Source of the DNA: Ignavibacteria bacterium
Lineage (GTDB): Bacteria; Bacteroidota; Ignavibacteria; Ignavibacteriales; Melioribacteraceae
Length of the DNA: 7,456 bases
Direction: 5' to 3'
NCBI GenBank assembly: GCA_003233295.1
Contig: QILJ01000177.1
Span: 1-7,456 of the forward strand
Positions 1 to 7,456 of this stretch are shown piece after piece. The position numbers were made by a program, and so were the translations under genes. Numbering within the stretch: position 1 is the stretch's first letter; each line of letters starts with the position of its first letter. Below the pieces are notes generated by a model that saw nothing but the letters and a program-made list of their open reading frames with translations, had not been told where the DNA came from and did no database searches.

Positions 1-175
1 TTGCATTTATCGTTGTATCAAATCCATGCATAACCATTGCAACGCTATCGCCGACCAGAACCGCATCAATATCGCTTTCGTCAATTATCCGCGCAGACCA
101 ATAGTCGTAACATGTGACCATCGAAATGTTCTTGCCCTCGCTTTTCAATTTTCCGAAACCTTTAATATTCTTCAT
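1..175 (-). CDS. panB: PanB, 3-methyl-2-oxobutanoate hydroxymethyltransferase (N-terminal part, cut by window edge)
   Basis: Ketopantoate hydroxymethyltransferase transfers a hydroxymethyl group from 5,10-methylene-tetrahydrofolate to 3-methyl-2-oxobutanoate, the first committed step of pantothenate/CoA synthesis in the cytoplasm. Only the first 58 codons are in the window, starting at the ATG read leftward from 175. The translation begins [20 protein letters not shown] and continues with the family signatures TCYDYWSAR (residues 21-29), [11 protein letters not shown] (37-47) and GFDTT (51-55). In known PanB proteins the Asp of VGDS (here D43) binds the catalytic Mg2+, and S44 lies beside the substrate. 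No clear Shine-Dalgarno precedes the start; an ATTAAG repeat lies there instead. GC by hand count is about 41% (72/175), higher than the neighbouring regulator genes. The plus-strand reading frame over the same bases is a shadow. The assignment is from motif recognition and is firm. Confidence 0.93.
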
Positions 176-189
176 CTATTTAAAACTTT

Positions 190-226
190 CTTAATCTTAA
201 TTCTTAATCTTACTCTTAATCCTACT
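190..226. repeat. Degenerate hexamer tandem repeat (CTTAAT / ATTAAG) in the panB leader
   Basis: Exact CTTAAT units occur at 190-195, 196-201, 203-208 and 215-220, with variants CTTACT at 209-214 and CCTACT at 221-226; a single extra T sits at 202. In panB sense the units read ATTAAG and end 15 bases before the ATG, where a ribosome binding site is expected. It could be a replication-slippage tract affecting panB expression or simple low-complexity DNA. Confidence 0.6.
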
Positions 227-264
227 CCACACGATCAAAACCGTTAACTAATTTGATTAATCCA

Positions 265-278
265 ATGATAACTATCAT
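265..278. promoter_or_regulatory. Palindrome ATGATA-AC-TATCAT upstream of panB, possible operator
   Basis: Two perfect 6-bp arms (265-270 and 273-278) are separated by 2 bases, about 90 bases upstream of the panB start. The size and symmetry suit a dimeric repressor site. No regulator can be named from it; the GATAA/TATC content only loosely recalls metal-regulator boxes. In such AT-rich DNA a chance origin is possible. Confidence 0.25.
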
Positions 279-380
279 CTATAAATATTGAAAAGTGCAA
301 AGAGATAACGTCAAAGCATTATCACTACACTTAGTTCAATTAAATAATTATTTTTATAAGTTCTTTGTGCATCACGGTAC

Positions 381-450
381 CTGTCCTTCGATCAAGTCCT
401 TCACAAAATGTAATTTGATAGTTACACTGTAACTGTCTTGCGATCAGCTC
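381..450. repeat. Imperfect direct repeat with an adjoining 15-bp palindrome
   Basis: CTGTCCTTCGATCAAGTC (381-398) recurs as CTGTCTTGCGATCAGCTC (433-450), 14 of 18 bases identical and offset by 52 bases. Overlapping the second copy is AGTTACA-C-TGTAACT (420-434), with perfect 7-bp arms around one central base. The cluster is more GC-rich than the surrounding DNA and looks like regulator binding sites or the scar of a small element. No function can be assigned. Confidence 0.4.
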
Positions 451-590
451 ATATTTTACAATTCAAAACTAATGAAATTTTTATTGGGAACACAAAACTT
501 TATTAAAAAGATTTTTCTAATAGTGTTTATTTGAAAAATTCTAAGATGGGAATGGATAAATATCAAATGCAATAATTATTTATACCATGG

Positions 591-615
591 AAAAAGTTCT
601 GTCCCAGTGACAGAC
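591..615 (-). terminator. Probable intrinsic terminator of the kinase/regulator operon
   Basis: Read leftward, TCTGTC and GACAGA form a 6-bp stem around the loop ACTGG, followed at once by AACTTTTT. It lies about 165 bases beyond the stop codon of the response regulator, in the right orientation to end that operon before panB. The stem is short, so termination may be partial and panB could receive read-through. Confidence 0.45.
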
Positions 616-779
616 AAGCGCAACTTATTAAATTTATAGTAATCAAAAACAATTCAAAATAGCTTTCCCGTCGATCTTTATTGCATGATTAACAATTGCA
701 ATTTCTGCTTCAAGTTCGGTTTGTTTTTTATATTCAAAAACGTTGTGTAATTGCATAATGGTACAAAAGCATATTTTAC

Positions 780-2165
780 TTAAAGATATGAACCTTCTGT
801 TTTATCCTTGTAAATAATTTTATACTTTGCAATAAGTCTATGTATTGTTCTTCTATCAATCCCGCACTTTTGGGCTGTTTGTGAGATGTTACCTTCATTC
901 TCTTTTAGATGGTGAGTTAAGTATTCAATTTCAAATTTACTAATTACATTTTCCTTTGCTTCCATGTATGATTGTGAAAGTAAATTTTGATTTAGTTTAT
1001 TCTTTTCCGAACAAAGGAAGATCATCAGGTCATCATCTTCTATTACTCTCTTTTCTGACGATAGTAAAAAATATGATCTGCTTATAATATTTATCAATTC
1101 TCTAACATTCCCGGGCCACTCGTAATCTGTTAACGCTATTTCTGCAGAAGAAGAAAATGTTTTTAATGGACTTCCATTTTTAGTGCAAAGATTATTGAGT
1201 ATGTGATTGGCTAACAAAATTATATCTTCTTTCCTATCTCTGAGTGGCGGAATAGTAATTTGAAAAGTGTTTAATCTGTAAAACAAGTCCTCTCTGAATT
1301 TACCTATTTCTATTTCCTTCTCAAGATCTTTGTTTGTTGCGGCAATAATTCTAACATCAACATCAATCTCTTTGTTGCTTCCAATTCTTCTAATCTTCTT
1401 GTCTTCAAGTAGCCGCAAAATTTTAATTTGCATTGGCAAACTCATATCCCCAATCTCATCTAAGAAAAAAGTACCATGATTTGCAAATTCCAATAGTCCT
1501 GGTTTGGTTTTTACTGCGCCTGTAAAAGCACCTCGTTCATGCCCAAACAACTCACTCTCAAAAAGATCTTCCGGCAAAGCACCACAATTAACTGGTACAA
1601 ATGGGTGCTTACTCCCTCTGCTAAATTTATGAATTGCTCTAGCAACTAATTCTTTTCCGACTCCACTTTCGCCCAAGATAAGTACATTCATATTTTGTGA
1701 TGATATCTTTTTTAACGAATCAATCATTTTCTGCATTTCAATACTAGAATAAATAATACCCTCTAATTGTTTTACGGTACTTTCTTCTTTCAGTTTCTGA
1801 TCATCTGCATCAATTGCTCTTTTTATACTATCCATTAATTTTCGTGATGTAAAAGGCTTTTCAATAAAGTCGAAAGCCCCATTCTGGATTGCCTCAACAC
1901 TTGCCTCAATAGTACCATAACCTGATATTATTATCACAGGGGTACCCGGGAAACTAGCTGTTGCATTTCCCAATACTTCCATCCCTGAAATTCCACCCAT
2001 TTTTAGATCTGTAATAATCAGATCAAATTTTCTAGTTTTTATTATTTCCAAAGCTTTTTCAGGTCTGTTCTCTACATCCAAATGATAACCTGATTCATGG
2101 GAAAGGATTTTTTCTAAACTTTCTAGCATTTGAATTTCGTCATCAACAATTAATATGTTTTTCAT
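780..2165 (-). CDS. NtrC-family sigma54-dependent response regulator (REC - AAA+ - Fis-type HTH)
   Basis: A cytoplasmic transcription activator that, when phosphorylated, uses ATP to open promoters held by sigma54 RNA polymerase. The 461-aa length is normal for the family. Receiver domain, residues 1-120: acid pocket D8/D9, phosphoacceptor D53 (ITDLKM), switch S81 and K103 in EKPF. AAA+ domain, about 135-370: Walker A GESGVGKE (165-172), the sigma54-contacting GAFTGA loop (212-217), Walker B FFLDEIGD (233-240), sensor I RIIAATN (272-278) and arginine-bearing WPGNVREL (350-357). C-terminal Fis-like helix-turn-helix, about 420-450: NEGNISQTAQKCGIDRRTIHRL. Every key residue is intact, so it should be a working activator. 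Its ATG overlaps the kinase stop as ATGA, with a strong AGGAGGAG ribosome site 7 bases upstream inside the kinase gene, implying coupled translation and a cognate pair. Its likely target is the divergent sigma54 promoter at 3869-3884. The promoter specificity is inference. Confidence 0.96.
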   Translation of the reverse strand: MKNILIVDDEIQMLESLEKILSHESGYHLDVENRPEKALEIIKTRKFDLIITDLKMGGISGMEVLGNATASFPGTPVIIISGYGTIEASVEAIQNGAFDFIEKPFTSRKLMDSIKRAIDADDQKLKEESTVKQLEGIIYSSIEMQKMIDSLKKISSQNMNVLILGESGVGKELVARAIHKFSRGSKHPFVPVNCGALPEDLFESELFGHERGAFTGAVKTKPGLLEFANHGTFFLDEIGDMSLPMQIKILRLLEDKKIRRIGSNKEIDVDVRIIAATNKDLEKEIEIGKFREDLFYRLNTFQITIPPLRDRKEDIILLANHILNNLCTKNGSPLKTFSSSAEIALTDYEWPGNVRELINIISRSYFLLSSEKRVIEDDDLMIFLCSEKNKLNQNLLSQSYMEAKENVISKFEIEYLTHHLKENEGNISQTAQKCGIDRRTIHRLIAKYKIIYKDKTEGSYL

Positions 2166-3649
2166 TTCTCTTCTCCTCCTGCGCTTTTGAATCTTATTGT
2201 AAAGCTAGTACCGTTATTAATTGCGCTTTCACACAAGATTTCAGCCCCATGATTTTTACAGATATTCTTAATAATGTAAAGTCCTAAACCAGTTCCCTTT
2301 TCCCCAGTTTTCGTAGTAAAAAATGGAGAATATATTCTTTCCAAATTTTCTTTTGAAATACCTTTACCGTTGTCAACTATAATAAATTCAACTCTTCCTG
2401 ATTCATCTTTTTTGATAGTAACTGAGATTCTTCCCCCAGATTCCATTGCATCCAAAGCATTGTTTAATAAATTCATTATTACTTGTTCAATCTGTACAAT
2501 ATTTCCATGAATAATTACTTTATCATCTATAAAATTACTATCCACACTAATATGATTTTTCTTAAAAAGCGGATCAAAATTATCTAAGGTTGAATTTGTC
2601 AATTGAATTAAGTCAAGGTCGTGAAATTCGGAAGAAACTCTTTTTGCATTTTTTAGAATAAAACCAGTTGTTTTTGAAATCTTATGAACTTGTTCAATAA
2701 TAACGTCTAATTCCTCCTTAAATTTTTTCATGAAAGAATTATTTTCTGCTTCCATTTGAAGGAAATCAGCTCTTGTCATAATAATAGCAGAATAGTTATT
2801 AATATCATGAGCCATAGCTGCAGCTATTTCGCCAAGTGTTACCATTTTATCCGCACGTCTTAATTCCTCAATATGCAGTTGCTCAATTTCTTTACGCGAG
2901 TTATCCATTTCATTAACCATCCTATTGAAATGGTTATTTATCACTCCAAATTCATCATTATGTTCTATCGGTAGACGAGCTATAAAATCCCCTTTTTCCA
3001 ATTTATCAATCGCTCCATTAATTTCTAGTAAAGGCTTATTAATGAAATAATTAAATAACACTATAAGTCCAAACGTCAATAGAATAATCAAAAGGATACC
3101 TAGGTAAACGTAATGCTGCACACCAGTAGAAAAATTTCTTTCTGCTGAAGTTAAATGAATATCAACATCCATGTAAGCAATTACAGGTTGACTTGCATCG
3201 TGACAACTATGACATGCATTTTCATTTTTTATTGCAAGAAGAGCTATGAATGCATGCTTGTTATCCATTAAACTAGTTTTTCTTCCCTCAATTTTATTAA
3301 AATTTGAATCGACATGCTCAGGAGCAACAATTCGAATATTTTTATTTATATATTGATGTTCAGAAGAATACAAAATCCTCCCATCAGAATTAAATATTCT
3401 AATATGTTGAACATTCTCATTGAGTATTGTGCTGTCAATCAATTCCTGAATATTTTTAGAGTAATTCCCCTTCATAGAACTTTTAAGATTATATAAGATC
3501 ATATCAACAGCAGAATTCAGATATGTTTCTGATCTTTCTCTAAAGTTTATCTGAAATTGTCTAATAAGGAAATAATTAGGAATACCAATACTTAGGATAA
3601 TCAACAGTATGGAGTAGAATACAAACTTACTTTTGATAGTTTTTAGCAT
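2162..3649 (-). CDS. Membrane sensor histidine kinase with a periplasmic c-type haem motif
   Basis: Cognate kinase of the downstream NtrC-type regulator. Numbered from the ATG at 3649 (495 aa): TM1 about 9-30, periplasmic sensor about 31-179, TM2 about 181-203, HAMP about 204-256, then the dimerisation/phosphoacceptor region with H281 in MAHDINN. The ATPase domain has an N box (N393/N396/N397), VDNGKG (425-430) and GTGLGL (452-457). Near the end of the periplasmic part is CHSCH (146-150), a CxxCH covalent haem c site, followed by a stretch like that seen in other haem-bearing sensor kinases and chemoreceptors (VIAYMDVDI). It probably senses redox potential or a haem ligand. The frame stays open upstream to a GTG at 3733. 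I prefer 3649 because TM1 then follows a short basic N-terminus, GAGAG lies 7 bases upstream, and the extra 28 residues would cover a regulatory palindrome. Haem attachment is inferred from the motif. Confidence 0.93.
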   Translation of the reverse strand: MLKTIKSKFVFYSILLIILSIGIPNYFLIRQFQINFRERSETYLNSAVDMILYNLKSSMKGNYSKNIQELIDSTILNENVQHIRIFNSDGRILYSSEHQYINKNIRIVAPEHVDSNFNKIEGRKTSLMDNKHAFIALLAIKNENACHSCHDASQPVIAYMDVDIHLTSAERNFSTGVQHYVYLGILLIILLTFGLIVLFNYFINKPLLEINGAIDKLEKGDFIARLPIEHNDEFGVINNHFNRMVNEMDNSRKEIEQLHIEELRRADKMVTLGEIAAAMAHDINNYSAIIMTRADFLQMEAENNSFMKKFKEELDVIIEQVHKISKTTGFILKNAKRVSSEFHDLDLIQLTNSTLDNFDPLFKKNHISVDSNFIDDKVIIHGNIVQIEQVIMNLLNNALDAMESGGRISVTIKKDESGRVEFIIVDNGKGISKENLERIYSPFFTTKTGEKGTGLGLYIIKNICKNHGAEILCESAINNGTSFTIRFKSAGGEEK

Positions 3650-3708
3650 TTGAAAGCTCTCAAAATTTATATTTTGAATTTTCCAAGTAAATGTTAGTGT
3701 CTTTTTAC

Positions 3709-3723
3709 TGTCCCACTGAGACA
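3709..3723. promoter_or_regulatory. Near-palindrome TGTCCCA-C-TGAGACA, candidate activator (enhancer) site
   Basis: Two 7-bp arms with one mismatched pair surround a central C. The site is centred about 179 bases upstream of the predicted sigma54 start at 3895, within the usual reach of NtrC-type enhancer sites, and 60 bases upstream of the kinase ATG, where it could also serve autoregulation. A further TGTC half-site lies at 3698-3701. That the neighbouring regulator binds here is inference. Confidence 0.4.
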
Positions 3724-3868
3724 TTTGTATCACACTAAAAACATAATAAGTTTATAATTAGAATTAATAACATTTTTATATTAACAAATATGTTTTGTTT
3801 TTAGCTGATTATTAAAGTAAAATTTTATTATTAGAAACAAATTATTCCTTAAGACTAAAATATCTTAT

Positions 3869-3884
3869 TGGTACGTATGTTGCA
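3869..3884 (+). promoter_or_regulatory. Sigma54 (-24/-12) promoter of the receiver-cytochrome operon
   Basis: The sequence TGGTACG-TATG-TTGCA matches the sigma54 consensus TGGCACG-N4-TTGCW at every defined position except one (T for C). The essential GG (3870-3871) and GC (3882-3883) have the required 12-base spacing. The start site should fall at about 3895, at or next to the ATG at 3896. The site sits between the activator operon and the cytochrome operon, the expected arrangement for a local NtrC-type regulator, with AT-rich, bendable DNA upstream. Confidence 0.8.
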
Positions 3885-3895
3885 AGTGAATTTAT

Positions 3896-4282
3896 ATGCA
3901 AATTTTAGCAATCACTAAAGATGTAATTTTATTAAGCTCATTGTGCCACCAAAGTATAACTGAGCTTGGGGAACTCAGATTATATGAGGGGTCTTACGAT
4001 CCATTAGAAATTATCTCTTCAGTACATTCACTTTCCCCTGCATTACTAATTTTGGATGACGATTTGCTTAAACCAAACTCTGCAAAAATTATTAAATCGA
4101 TAAAGCAAATTTTCGAAAATGTTTTAATCATCTTTTTAACTTCTGATAATAGTGTTGATCTTGGAAGAGTCATTTCACCAATCGGGGTATATTTCTATGG
4201 AATAAAGCCAATCTCCACAGATGAGTTAATAGACTTGATTAAATCTGTTTTTACAAAAAATAATTCAAAGACTTATTCTTAA
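3896..4282 (+). CDS. Stand-alone degenerate receiver (CheY-like) domain protein
   Basis: A 128-aa cytoplasmic protein that fits one response-regulator receiver fold with no output domain. Visible landmarks: beta-1 MQILAI (1-6); beta-3 ending in LLILDDD (50-56) with D54 at the phosphoacceptor position; beta-4 LIIFLTSD (77-84) with T82; and GIKPI (102-106) with the conserved K104. The paired acidic residues that normally follow beta-1 and bind Mg2+ are replaced by T7-K8, with only D9 nearby, so phosphorylation may be weak or absent. It is the first gene after the sigma54 promoter and 17 bases before the cytochrome ATG, so it is co-transcribed with the target rather than with the kinase. Possible roles are a phosphate sink, a feedback protein or an adaptor; none is shown. 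No ribosome binding site is visible and the predicted mRNA start falls on the ATG. The fold call is by pattern and fairly secure; the function is unknown. Confidence 0.82.
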   Translation: MQILAITKDVILLSSLCHQSITELGELRLYEGSYDPLEIISSVHSLSPALLILDDDLLKPNSAKIIKSIKQIFENVLIIFLTSDNSVDLGRVISPIGVYFYGIKPISTDELIDLIKSVFTKNNSKTYS

Positions 4283-4299
4283 ACAAAATGGAGGTTTCC

Positions 4300-7074
4300 A
4301 TGAACAAAATCTTTTCAATGCTTACTGCTCTAATTTTAGTAAGCTTAATTCCTGTTTCCGCTCAGGTTGTGTCATTAGATACCTATGGTGTCAATCCTAG
4401 AGAGGTAGCTAAGGATACTATGGATATTTTCGATCAAACATATAATGGTTTGGAAAATGTCGGTAAAGAAACAGAAATGTATTTAAAAGGAAGTTCTAGT
4501 TTAGCTCTTACTGGAGCAACTTGGACTTTAATCACAAAACCTGATAGTTCAGCATCAGTATTAGGAACACCTGAAGTTGCTGATACTTCAACAGAATTTA
4601 TGGTTTTTACACCCGATGTTTCGGGTACTTATAAAATAGTCTTTGCAGATGGTGGAATGGCTGATACAATCACTATTAATGCAGGGTTGTATTTAGGCAT
4701 GGAGGGTGGAGCTGTAGCTTGCGTAACTTGTCACTCTGCTACCGCAACTAAATACATGACAACTGCTCATGCAACTGCAGTAAAAAAACAATTTGATGCT
4801 ATGGAAGGAAGTACTAGTCACTTTGGTGAATCTTGTTTAGAGTGCCATACAACTGGCTACAATTTAAATGCCGTTAATGACGGATTTGATGATTGGCCAT
4901 TCGTATTCCCAGATACATTTGCAACTGGTGTTTACGATGAGATGAAAGCTGCTTATCCTGATGCGATGGCGAGAGCAGATGTACAATGCGAAGCTTGTCA
5001 TGGTCCGGGCAGTGAACATGTGGGTAATAAAACTGATAATAAAATAGTAAAATCATTTGACTCAAAAACCTGTGCAGCTTGTCATGAAGATAATGGCATA
5101 CATCACTATATACCTTCACAATGGAACGCTTCAGGGCAAGATGCAACTGAATTTGACGGACGCGGATTCCACGGCGGACATGCAATTGGAGCATTTGTCG
5201 GTTATGCAGGAAATAGAAGCGGGTGTTCACCTTGTCATAGTGGTTCCGGATATGTTCAGTGGGTCAAAGAAGGGAAACCCGTTAATTCATTAGGTTTGCC
5301 TGCAGCAACTGCTGAACTACCGGTCGGGACTAACATTTCTTGTGCTGTTTGCCATGATCCTCATGATGCATCTCAAGAACATCAATTGAGATTGTCAGAC
5401 ACACAACTTGGTGATGGTACCCCTGTAACATTTGATAAATACGGCACGGGTGCTCAGTGTATGGAATGCCATAGATCACGTAGAAATGCTGAAGAATATA
5501 CTAATGATCCAAACAATGGTAGTCCATATTTTGGCGCACATCATGGCCCGCAAGCGGATATGTTAATTGGTGCAAATGCCCCAAATTTTGGGATCAAACT
5601 ACCATCCTCTCCTCATGCTACCGCAATTGATAATGCATGCGTTGGCTGCCATATGTCTAATGCAGCTGGTGCATTTGATACAAATGGTGATGTAGTTTTA
5701 GTAGGCGGTCACTCATTTAACATGAATGACAAATTAGGTAATGATAATGTTAAAGTTTGTGAAAAATGTCATGGTGACGTTGGTACGACCTTTAATGAGA
5801 AAAAATATTACTTTAACGGGAATGCAGATCATGACGGTGATGGAGTTGCAGAAGGTGTTCAAGAAGAAGTACATGGAATGTTAGAAGAACTTGCAACTTA
5901 TTTACCTCAAGATGCAGATGGTAATGTTGATATGTCTGCAAAGGATAATTCTATCGCTGTATTGAAAGCGGGATATGCTTATATATGGGTAGAAGAGGAT
6001 AGAAGTTTTGGTATCCATAACCCTGCATTCACTGTTGGTTTATTAAGAGCTGCAATTGAATCAATGAAATATGGTTCTATCACAGCTGGTGCAATTCAAA
6101 GTATAACTGATATCCCAATGGATCAAGGATATCAGGTTAGGTTGGTTTGGACAGCTTTTGGTGCTGATGATGGTATTGCAATGGATGCGGTAAAAACTTA
6201 TACAATATTACGTAAAGTCGCTGACGCTGTTCCTCCAAAGGGTTTTGTAAATTACGAAACAATTTCCCAGATTCCTCCTAAATTAGAAGTTGGAGCATCA
6301 CTTGCACTAGCAGGTGAAATGTGGGACGTAGTTAAAGAAGTTGAAGCTATTCAGTTTATGGAATATAGCACTGTGGTTCCTACATTATACAATACCGTTG
6401 AAGGAGATACTGCTTGGGCTACATTTAAAGTCCTTGGTAAAACCGAGAATGGTATTATTGCTGAAACTGATCCAATGGATGGATACTCAACTGACGACCT
6501 AGCTCCAATGGCTCCAACAAACTTGACTGCACAAGTTTTTGGAAATGGAGTAATGTTGGTTTGGGATAAACCTGTTGATAAAGATTTCAACTTCTTCGAA
6601 GTTTATCGAAGTGAAGAGCAAGGATTTATTCCTTCACCAGAAAAACTTATAGCCACAACTACTACTAGAAATCATATAGATACAAATGTTGAGGAAGGAA
6701 AAACATACTACTATATTGTAACAGCAAAAGATTTCTCAGAAAATATGAGTAAATCTTCAAATGAAGTTTATGTCACCCTTACTGATGTAACCAAAGAAGC
6801 AGGATTACCAACTGAATATGCATTAGATCAAAACTATCCAAATCCATTTAACCCATCTACTGCTATTAAGTTCGCTATTCCTGAAGCAGGGAATGTATCA
6901 TTAATTATTTATGATATGCTGGGTAACGAAGTTGAAGTATTAGTTAATAACCAAATGAATGCTGGCTACTATACATTTACTTGGAATGCTTCAAATTACG
7001 CATCAGGCATTTACTTCTGCCAAATGAAAGCAAATGAATTCACGCGTGTGAATAAAATGTTACTAATCAAATAA
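4300..7074 (+). CDS. Secreted nine-haem c-type cytochrome with Ig/FN3-like modules and a T9SS sorting domain
   Basis: A 924-aa exported electron-transfer protein. Signal peptide 1-21 (K3, hydrophobic core, cleavage after VSA). An Ig/PKD-like module spans about 60-128 (TPDVSGTY). Nine CxxCH motifs begin at residues 141, 179, 230, 258, 309, 348, 387, 447 and 487; the third, CEACHGPGSEH, resembles cytochrome c554-type proteins. Thirteen other histidines between 157 and 471, plus H573 in GIHNP, could supply distal ligands. DHDGDG (510-515) is a calcium-loop-like motif just after the last haem. FN3-like modules follow at about 605-735 and 737-828. Residues 837-924 form a T9SS type A sorting domain, predicting export across the outer membrane and attachment to or release from the surface. 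The start at 4300 is chosen over an ATG at 4288 because GGAGG (4290-4294) lies 5 bases before it and the signal peptide begins there. A role in extracellular electron transfer or as a surface reductase is inference; the substrate is unknown. Confidence 0.95.
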   Translation: MNKIFSMLTALILVSLIPVSAQVVSLDTYGVNPREVAKDTMDIFDQTYNGLENVGKETEMYLKGSSSLALTGATWTLITKPDSSASVLGTPEVADTSTEFMVFTPDVSGTYKIVFADGGMADTITINAGLYLGMEGGAVACVTCHSATATKYMTTAHATAVKKQFDAMEGSTSHFGESCLECHTTGYNLNAVNDGFDDWPFVFPDTFATGVYDEMKAAYPDAMARADVQCEACHGPGSEHVGNKTDNKIVKSFDSKTCAACHEDNGIHHYIPSQWNASGQDATEFDGRGFHGGHAIGAFVGYAGNRSGCSPCHSGSGYVQWVKEGKPVNSLGLPAATAELPVGTNISCAVCHDPHDASQEHQLRLSDTQLGDGTPVTFDKYGTGAQCMECHRSRRNAEEYTNDPNNGSPYFGAHHGPQADMLIGANAPNFGIKLPSSPHATAIDNACVGCHMSNAAGAFDTNGDVVLVGGHSFNMNDKLGNDNVKVCEKCHGDVGTTFNEKKYYFNGNADHDGDGVAEGVQEEVHGMLEELATYLPQDADGNVDMSAKDNSIAVLKAGYAYIWVEEDRSFGIHNPAFTVGLLRAAIESMKYGSITAGAIQSITDIPMDQGYQVRLVWTAFGADDGIAMDAVKTYTILRKVADAVPPKGFVNYETISQIPPKLEVGASLALAGEMWDVVKEVEAIQFMEYSTVVPTLYNTVEGDTAWATFKVLGKTENGIIAETDPMDGYSTDDLAPMAPTNLTAQVFGNGVMLVWDKPVDKDFNFFEVYRSEEQGFIPSPEKLIATTTTRNHIDTNVEEGKTYYYIVTAKDFSENMSKSSNEVYVTLTDVTKEAGLPTEYALDQNYPNPFNPSTAIKFAIPEAGNVSLIIYDMLGNEVEVLVNNQMNAGYYTFTWNASNYASGIYFCQMKANEFTRVNKMLLIK

Positions 7075-7091
7075 GGTCTTCCAACCTTTTA

Positions 7092-7119
7092 AAAAGACCC
7101 GGGGAAACCCGGGTCTTTT
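7092..7119 (+). terminator. Strong intrinsic terminator after the cytochrome gene, bidirectional in form
   Basis: AAAAGACCCGGG (7092-7103) and CCCGGGTCTTTT (7108-7119) form a perfect 12-bp stem around a GAAA tetraloop, 17 bases after the cytochrome stop. The stem ends in T4 on this strand and T5 on the other, so it could also stop leftward transcription. GGTCTT at 7075-7080 can alternatively pair with AAGACC at 7094-7099, but that stem is much weaker. Confidence 0.93.
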
Positions 7120-7456
7120 GTAATTTGCAATTTCCACATAATTCTGTTTGCTCTGATTGTAGATTAATATTATAGATTATAAACCATCCTATAGCCAATA
7201 TTCGTTTCCTATTTCTCATTATAAGTTCTAGGTCTATTGGCATTTATATAGCAAACTTTTTCGTGTTATGTCAAATAAAAGGTTACTCCAAATCATAATT
7301 ATTCAACCACTTTTTTAAAATAATTCTAAACCAGAGAAACCGCAGCAAGCTCCAACCTTTCTTTATTATACCTAAATTGAGCGATTAAGACCGTTAAAAA
7401 ACCTTTTAGGGCTGTTTAAAGAGCTAAAAAAGCACTATTTTTGTATTTCTGAAAGA
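7120..7456. other. Gene-poor 3' flank, no convincing CDS
   Basis: About 340 AT-rich bases after the terminator, with no long reading frame on either strand and no tRNA-like fold that I can see. It contains a left-pointing promoter candidate (7245-7274), an inverted repeat GCCAATA (7194-7200) / TATTGGC (7235-7241), and an overlapping weak sigma54-like site reading right (7238-7253). From 7275 to the end I see nothing assignable; the next gene probably starts beyond the window. Confidence 0.55.
7245..7274 (-). promoter_or_regulatory. Sigma70-like promoter candidate pointing left toward the terminator
   Basis: Read leftward, a perfect -35 TTGACA (7274-7269), an 18-base spacer and TATATA (7250-7245) make a near-consensus housekeeping promoter starting at about 7238. 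The only thing downstream is about 120 non-coding bases and then the bidirectional terminator, so the product would be a small RNA of roughly 145 nt. How closely this organism's main sigma factor follows the E. coli consensus is unknown, and the -10 is not perfect. Confidence 0.4.

Follow-up and report, generated by a model that had tools for sequence, protein, structure and literature searches.

A putative haem-c-sensing two-component/sigma54 switch beside a surface multihaem cytochrome operon in Ignavibacteria

Introduction

To our knowledge, little is known about how bacteria outside Geobacter and Shewanella decide when to build their surface electron-transfer proteins. The question is raised anew by a 7,456-nucleotide stretch of DNA from an Ignavibacteria bacterium (contig QILJ01000177.1, positions 1 to 7,456; hereafter the window), in which genes for a sensor histidine kinase with a periplasmic CxxCH motif and for an NtrC-family sigma54 activator diverge from an operon encoding a degenerate receiver protein, here called REC, and a nonahaem cytochrome with a sorting domain of the type IX secretion system (T9SS). 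Members of the class are implicated in electrode and mineral reduction in a passage of PMC7399161. The gene order and the conserved sites described below suggest, with a probability of about 0.72, that in Ignavibacteria-like bacteria the locus encodes a two-component/sigma54 switch that senses by means of haem c and is dedicated to a multihaem terminal reductase of the cell surface. The wiring of this putative switch appears well supported, and all of the regulation is read from sequence.

Results

Organisation of the locus

The features on which the argument relies are as follows.

780..2165, minus strand: NtrC-family sigma54 activator, 461 amino acids, with a receiver, an AAA+ domain with GAFTGA and a Fis-type helix-turn-helix (Pfam PF00072, PF00158, PF25601, PF02954)
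2162..3649, minus strand: sensor histidine kinase, 495 amino acids, with a periplasmic c-haem Cache/PAS-like domain, HAMP, H-box MAHDINN and HATPase_c
3200..3214, minus strand: c-haem motif CHSCH, kinase residues 146-150 counted from ATG 3649; CxxCH is present in 13/13 loci and 13/13 rows of alignment A4
3473..3475, minus strand: kinase Met59, by alignment equivalent to the distal haem ligand Met60 of GSU0935 (numbering as in a passage of PMC8396549)
3709..3723, no strand assigned: palindrome TGTCCCACTGAGACA, candidate activator site (upstream activating sequence), with a further half-site 4 nt on (composite 3711-3733)
3869..3884, plus strand: sigma54-type promoter element TGGTACGTATGTTGCA, its position kept in 11/11 loci in which REC comes first
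3896..4282, plus strand: REC, degenerate receiver, 128 amino acids, predicted to be leaderless (Pfam PF00072, E 1.5e-4, below the cut-off)
4300..7074, plus strand: nonahaem cytochrome, 924 amino acids, with an OcwA-like core, FnIII-like domains and a T9SS type A C-terminal sorting domain
7092..7119, plus strand: GC-rich hairpin AAAAGACCCGG...CCGGGTCTTTT, probable operon terminator, read by eye

The start of the activator gene overlaps the stop of the kinase gene as ATGA, and in the divergent operon REC is the first gene and the cytochrome the second. Because of its alignment with relatives, the kinase start is placed most likely at ATG 3649 (MLKTIKSKF..., as in these relatives) rather than in the longer GTG frame from 3733, and the cytochrome most likely begins at ATG 4300, not 4288, with GGAGG at 4290-4294 just upstream. 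An initial annotation of the window had described a CxxCH kinase, an intact activator in ATGA overlap with it, a divergent promoter matching sigma54 and a nine-haem T9SS cytochrome as second gene, all of which were recovered here with their expected domains and motifs; the degenerate receiver gene and the palindrome are absent from it.

Conservation of the module

The window comes without a whole genome, and the genomes of relatives were compared instead. The cytochrome as query led to five loci in genome contigs, four of which are relatives over the haem part; the fifth, from Flammeovirga (L005), matched only at the C-terminus and was left out. The whole set of genes is present in one of the five, an Ignavibacteriae metagenome-assembled genome (L001), and the sensor domains of the window and of L001 then served as the query for 391 genomes of the same class. 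Kinase matches at E <= 1e-20 occur in 14/391, 12 of them at E <= 1.1e-47, absence from the remaining genomes here and below referring to the best few candidates that such searches score in incomplete assemblies. The two weaker matches (G167 and G351; 4.1e-22 and 2.0e-21) were dropped, as there the kinase-NtrC pair lies beside an M54 peptidase and without a multihaem cytochrome. The 12 module genomes, those with the orthologous kinase, together with the window make up the 13 loci compared throughout.

In all 12 module genomes an NtrC-type activator adjoins the kinase and a multihaem gene diverges from it, with nine CxxCH motifs in nine genomes, eight in L030, seven in L038 and a gene cut by the contig end in L031. 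The T9SS sorting domain scores over the cut-off in 11/12, the remaining gene being cut by a contig end. REC is the first gene in 10/12, lies behind the cytochrome in L027 and is missing in L036, so that the loci with REC first number 11 when the window is included. In L034 a hexahaem gene separates the divergent region from the kinase. The comparison of gene neighbourhoods across the class that the initial annotation had proposed thus finds the regulators together with a multihaem gene in every one of the 12 kinase genomes. The self-contained circuit that it envisaged is supported as a recurring local kinase-activator-sigma54-cytochrome architecture with conserved sites; for its "electron conduit", an OcwA-like terminal reductase at the surface is the better description.

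The dependence runs one way, since the regulators accompany a multihaem gene in 12/12 and the cytochrome does not in turn require the regulators. Cytochrome matches at E <= 1e-60 were found in 125/391 class genomes, 10 of which are module genomes. Kinases of similar build are likewise commoner than the module: a full kinase profile at E <= 1e-60 matches in 35/395 genomes of the phylum, eight of them module genomes, and each of the four inspected among the other 27 carries one CxxCH.

Several neighbouring arrangements were seen along the way. Related one-CxxCH kinases and NtrC genes next to an M54 (archaemetzincin-like) peptidase gene in L039 (6942-10408) and L040 (9680-13148) represent a second haem-kinase system in the class, and a single-CxxCH protein lies farther off in L040. 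The NtrC gene of L034 (7389-8752) is split over two reading frames, the result either of a frameshift in the assembly or of decay of this copy. Multihaem clusters adjoin the module in L029 (13775-19671), where scanning identified NapC/NirT-type proteins and a 16-haem protein with a cytochrome b561 domain, and in L035 (13975-19553), where proteins with 8 or 23 CxxCH motifs were counted only. By a look at the sequence, L002 (5764-13002) holds two tandem nine-CxxCH cytochromes with a divergent receiver protein and a kinase-like gene in place of the NtrC pair; cytochromes of this family may there be under a different regulator.

The activator and its candidate site

NtrC-, ZraR- and AtoC-type activators share a domain order, the GAFTGA motif, an upstream palindromic site and a -24/-12 promoter. 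The activator of the module, with its receiver, sigma54-activation domain with GAFTGA and Fis-type helix-turn-helix, belongs to the NtrC family, and the locus resembles these systems in domain order and GAFTGA and has candidates for the upstream palindromic site and the -24/-12 promoter; it differs from them in having a c-haem sensor kinase as partner, a REC-cytochrome operon as target and a first gene predicted to be leaderless. The recognition-helix region reads C(G/D)(I/L)DRR(S/T/H)(I/L)HR in 13/13 module loci and is different in three other activators aligned.

The palindrome TGTCNCANTGNGACA was derived by reading the window and L001 side by side and then scanned for in 13 regions, each consisting of the intergenic DNA, 150 bp of the kinase and 60 bp of the first gene. 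It is present at <= 2 mismatches in 10/13 regions and, when the two regions of its derivation are set aside, in 8/11, compared with a mean of 0.10 and a maximum of 2 in 400 shuffles. The exact 15-mer occurs three times in the 12 whole genomes, in the divergent regions of G165 and G302 and, in G001, before a second T9SS cytochrome with 8 haems; the G001 site had itself contributed to the motif. The palindrome is probably the site of the activator, as far as its conservation can tell.

The sigma54-type promoter

The consensus TGGYRCRNNNNTTGCW has one exact match in the window, at 3869-3884 on the plus strand, compared with 0.01 expected and with one of 200 shuffles that has any. With two mismatches allowed there are 13 matches in the window against 4.5 expected, and therefore only the exact match is telling. 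Each of the 13 regions has exactly one GGYR-N6-TTG element. Its distance from the centre of the palindrome is 131-166 bp in 12 regions and 190 bp in L038, where no palindrome was recognised. The divergent regions overall are no more alike than shuffles (0.679 vs 0.671). The -12 base is found 12-14 nt before the REC ATG in 11/11 REC-first loci (mean 0.005 and maximum 1 in 3000 rounds of shuffling), and rpoN is present in all 12 module genomes. Transcription by sigma54 polymerase begins some 12 nt beyond the -12 element, and the REC mRNA is therefore predicted to begin within a few nucleotides of its ATG and thus to be leaderless.

In loci that begin with the cytochrome, the distance between the element and the start codon is 87 nt (L027) or, depending on the start chosen, 38 or 65 nt (L036). 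A further case is provided by G110, in which an 8-haem gene occupies the kinase locus and the closest nonahaem homologue is on another contig (L057). Upstream of this off-locus gene are TGTCACGCTGCGACA, a flanking TGTCAC and TGGCACATAAGTTGG at the usual spacing (142 bp), the promoter element lying 115 nt before the cytochrome start. The site was picked from 24 sites, a count no higher than the control, and what gives it weight is the gene that follows it, together with the two further elements. The gene adjoins cysS, which by a look at the sequence is also beside the module in L027, and because of this common neighbour the cytochrome seems to have been moved by a rearrangement together with its own control region.

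The sensor domain of the kinase

A two-sensor-domain profile finds PDB 3b42, the GSU0935 protein of Geobacter (E 2.9e-4), and PF21563 matches 13/13 kinases at E <= 1. The Tll0287-like family PF11845 matches five of the 13 at E <= 1, 0.0021 being the best value, and the window kinase is not among them. In the predicted model, strands 133-141 and 156-165 flank the CxxCH. The fold list of the kinase model is filled by the kinase domain, and the family assignment of the sensor therefore rests on sequence. When aligned with GSU0935 the CxxCH motifs coincide and Met60 falls on kinase Met59, which is invariant in 13/13 loci and in A4. This resemblance supports a haem c carried by the sensor domain, as the initial annotation had supposed.

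The Geobacter chemoreceptors GSU0935 and GSU0582 (PF21563) likewise have one CxxCH between two strands of a periplasmic Cache/PAS-like domain, which is placed between two membrane helices, and a conserved distal Met position, but their output is chemotaxis, whereas here the domain belongs to a histidine kinase beside a sigma54 activator. The haem of GSU0935 is ligated by His144 and, in one of the two subunits of the oxidised crystal, Met60, and such domains, whose midpoint potentials are -156 and -251 mV and which bind nitric oxide (NO) and CO as well, are interpreted as redox switches, as described in passages of PMC8396549. Three more are mentioned in Anaeromyxobacter in a passage of PMC3831638. 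A preprint (PMC12889525) counts the GSU0935 and GSU0582 domains in the sCache_heme family and reads its signalling members as NO sensors; among them a Pseudomonas azotoformans membrane protein likewise joins sCache_heme to HAMP, has reported NO-sensor properties and differs from the module kinase in output and target genes.

The nonahaem cytochrome

The cytochrome has nine CxxCH motifs, and a sorting domain that scores 39.1 bits with PF18962 (cut-off 27) and 37.1 with TIGR04183 (cut-off 23) identifies it as T9SS type A cargo. Its modelled core resembles in fold the nonahaem terminal reductase OcwA (6i5b). The 50 Foldseek matches listed for the model were FnIII-type proteins and complexes, and the haem core was found by a second aligner. 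Eight His residues outside the motifs are invariant in 38/38 cytochrome rows, and there is a partial match to Cytochrom_C552. OcwA is a nonahaem terminal reductase of the outer cell wall of Thermincola, in which haems 2 and 5 are open and haem 9 has His-Met ligands, and the abstract of PMC6703420 stresses that it can work without need for transcriptional regulation; by contrast, the cytochrome of the module has T9SS anchoring and FnIII-like domains and stands beside dedicated regulators. OcwA is also described there as reducing nitrite slowly and as both reducing and oxidising hydroxylamine.

REC, the degenerate receiver

A search of the 391 class genomes with 17 REC sequences gave matches at E <= 5.7e-40 in 11 genomes, the same 11 module genomes in which REC is present; among the 379 genomes without the module no match is so strong, and the next after the 11 is only 1.6e-11. 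A scan of viral contigs gave no REC relative. The protein retains Asp54, Thr82, Lys104 (Arg in L034) and Pro105. In the Mg-binding pair the first acid is Ser or Thr in all rows, and the second position is not acidic in 12/12 loci and is Glu in 9/22 rows of A1. The full set of residues of a phosphorylatable receiver (acid pair, phospho-Asp, Thr/Ser, Lys) is thus not present, and ordinary phosphorylation of REC appears doubtful.

Discussion

A model of the switch

In the proposed mechanism, the inner-membrane kinase would hold one c-type haem in its periplasmic Cache (PAS-like) domain, ligated axially by His150 and probably by Met59, and a change in haem redox state or ligation, such as oxidation with loss of Met or binding of NO, would alter kinase activity. 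The adjacency of the genes and their intact motifs suggest that the kinase phosphorylates the co-encoded activator, and the conservation of the palindrome that the activator binds about 150 bp upstream of the promoter. It would then open the sigma54 promoter, from which REC and the cytochrome would be co-transcribed, REC from a leaderless start. The cytochrome, secreted by the T9SS, would reduce external acceptors at the cell surface. In the weakest step, REC, whose synthesis would be confined to the switched-on state, most likely exerts feedback on the kinase or the activator.

A stronger version can be offered as speculation that we ourselves consider rather doubtful. It would be a closed redox loop in which the kinase reads the periplasmic potential, REC, produced in parallel with the reductase, restrains or insulates the kinase/activator pair, sigma54 transcription begins at the REC start codon as a fixed, selected part of the design, and output tracks the demand for acceptors.

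Evidence against and alternative readings

Several observations weigh against the switch. The initial annotation had itself named, as speaking against its proposal, homologous cytochromes without the regulators in most relatives, and taken literally this is what was found: 115 of the 125 cytochrome-bearing class genomes are without the module, and most cytochromes of this family must therefore be regulated in some other way. The module as a general regulator of the family was rejected, as the multihaem genes of L002, L003 and L004 are without the sites. L035 and L037 have only a weak form of the palindrome, with 3 and 4 mismatches, and in L038, with 6, it is absent. When up to one mismatch is allowed, the 12 genomes contain no more sites for the 15-mer than for a reversed control (24 vs 29), and in this form it was discarded as a regulon finder. 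The longer composite with the flanking half-site has 10 exact hits in the 12 genomes. They fall at 8 places, each within the divergent region or ahead of the second G001 cytochrome, and the reversed pattern has none; the composite was written from these loci, however, so that its hits there arise by construction, and the informative result is only that the 12 genomes have no off-target hits. In the wider class its sites are taken as background, with 71 occurrences in the 370 other genomes (57 of them) and about 49 of the reversed pattern over all 382. Finally, the PF21563 score of the window kinase, 27.5 bits, is barely above the cut-off of 27, and the -12 base is C in just seven of the 11 REC-first loci, being lost in L030, L032, L034 and L038.

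The most serious alternative, which we regard as the less probable account though one deserving attention, is that the kinase is a periplasmic NO sensor in a nitrosative response, in which NO or its precursors induce an OcwA/NrfA-related cytochrome that reduces nitrite or hydroxylamine, electron export being secondary. The P. azotoformans HAMP-linked sCache_heme protein showed tight NO binding and gave no stable complex with oxygen in the passages of PMC12889525, GSU0582 and GSU0935 also bind NO (passages of PMC8396549), and the slow action of OcwA on nitrite and its action on hydroxylamine (passages of PMC6703420) and the partial Cytochrom_C552 match point in the same direction, as do the NapC/NirT-type proteins by the module in L029, L034, L035 and L038, two of which have NrfH matches below the cut-off. 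Against this stand the invariance of Met59, at the redox-linked ligand position of GSU0935, and the 16-haem protein near the module in L029 with its cytochrome b561 domain, a partner of the kind expected for electron export; no NO or nitrite reductase gene was noticed beside the module, although no search was aimed at them. Sequence alone does not decide between redox potential and NO as the signal, and the target favours redox.

It is improbable that the element before REC is a translation or other control signal, with transcription starting further upstream. A promoter whose start falls on the ATG would be unusual, and the loss of the -12 C in 4/11 loci would agree with such a reading, but the near-exact sigma54 consensus in the window, the NtrC-type activator next door and rpoN in 12/12 genomes argue for a promoter, and the varied distances in the cytochrome-first arrangements of L027, L036 and L057 indicate that the element does not simply follow the start codon. 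Least probable of all is that the regulators act elsewhere, with the cytochrome operon a mere neighbour and the promoter match a chance one. The cytochromes of this family do mostly occur without regulators, but the divergent architecture is kept in 12/12, the sigma54-type element at its fixed distance in 11/11 and the operator is conserved, whereas in three module-less genomes the regions upstream of four multihaem genes (two genes of L002 and one each of L003 and L004) contain nothing closer to the palindrome than 4-5 mismatches.

The module is a real, conserved combination of known parts with two unexpected features, a degenerate receiver that strictly co-occurs with it and a sigma54 start predicted to be leaderless. 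No description of the module was found in open-licence titles, abstract openings and passages on c-haem kinases (also with NtrC), Ignavibacteria T9SS cytochromes, sigma54 with multihaem cytochromes, Melioribacter two-component systems and leaderless sigma54 transcripts. It offers candidates for the operator and the promoter, both exactly placed, and a named pair of sensor residues. It may also provide a natural haem-c promoter responsive to redox or NO, and the role of the degenerate receiver family that co-occurs with it is accessible to direct tests.

Other features of the window

The hairpin at 7092..7119 is not among the results of a simple terminator scan, and an Rfam search of the window gave no match. 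The start of panB (ketopantoate hydroxymethyltransferase, PF02548, E 7.2e-17) lies at 1-175 on the minus strand, and about 600 bp without a recognised gene separate it from the stop of the NtrC gene. Within this stretch, past the end of the NtrC gene and before the start of panB, TGTCCCAGTGACAGA at 600-614 forms part of the palindrome TCTGTC-CCAGT-GACAGA; it is two mismatches from the operator motif with a shorter spacing, and the window has two sites of such level compared with 0.23 expected.

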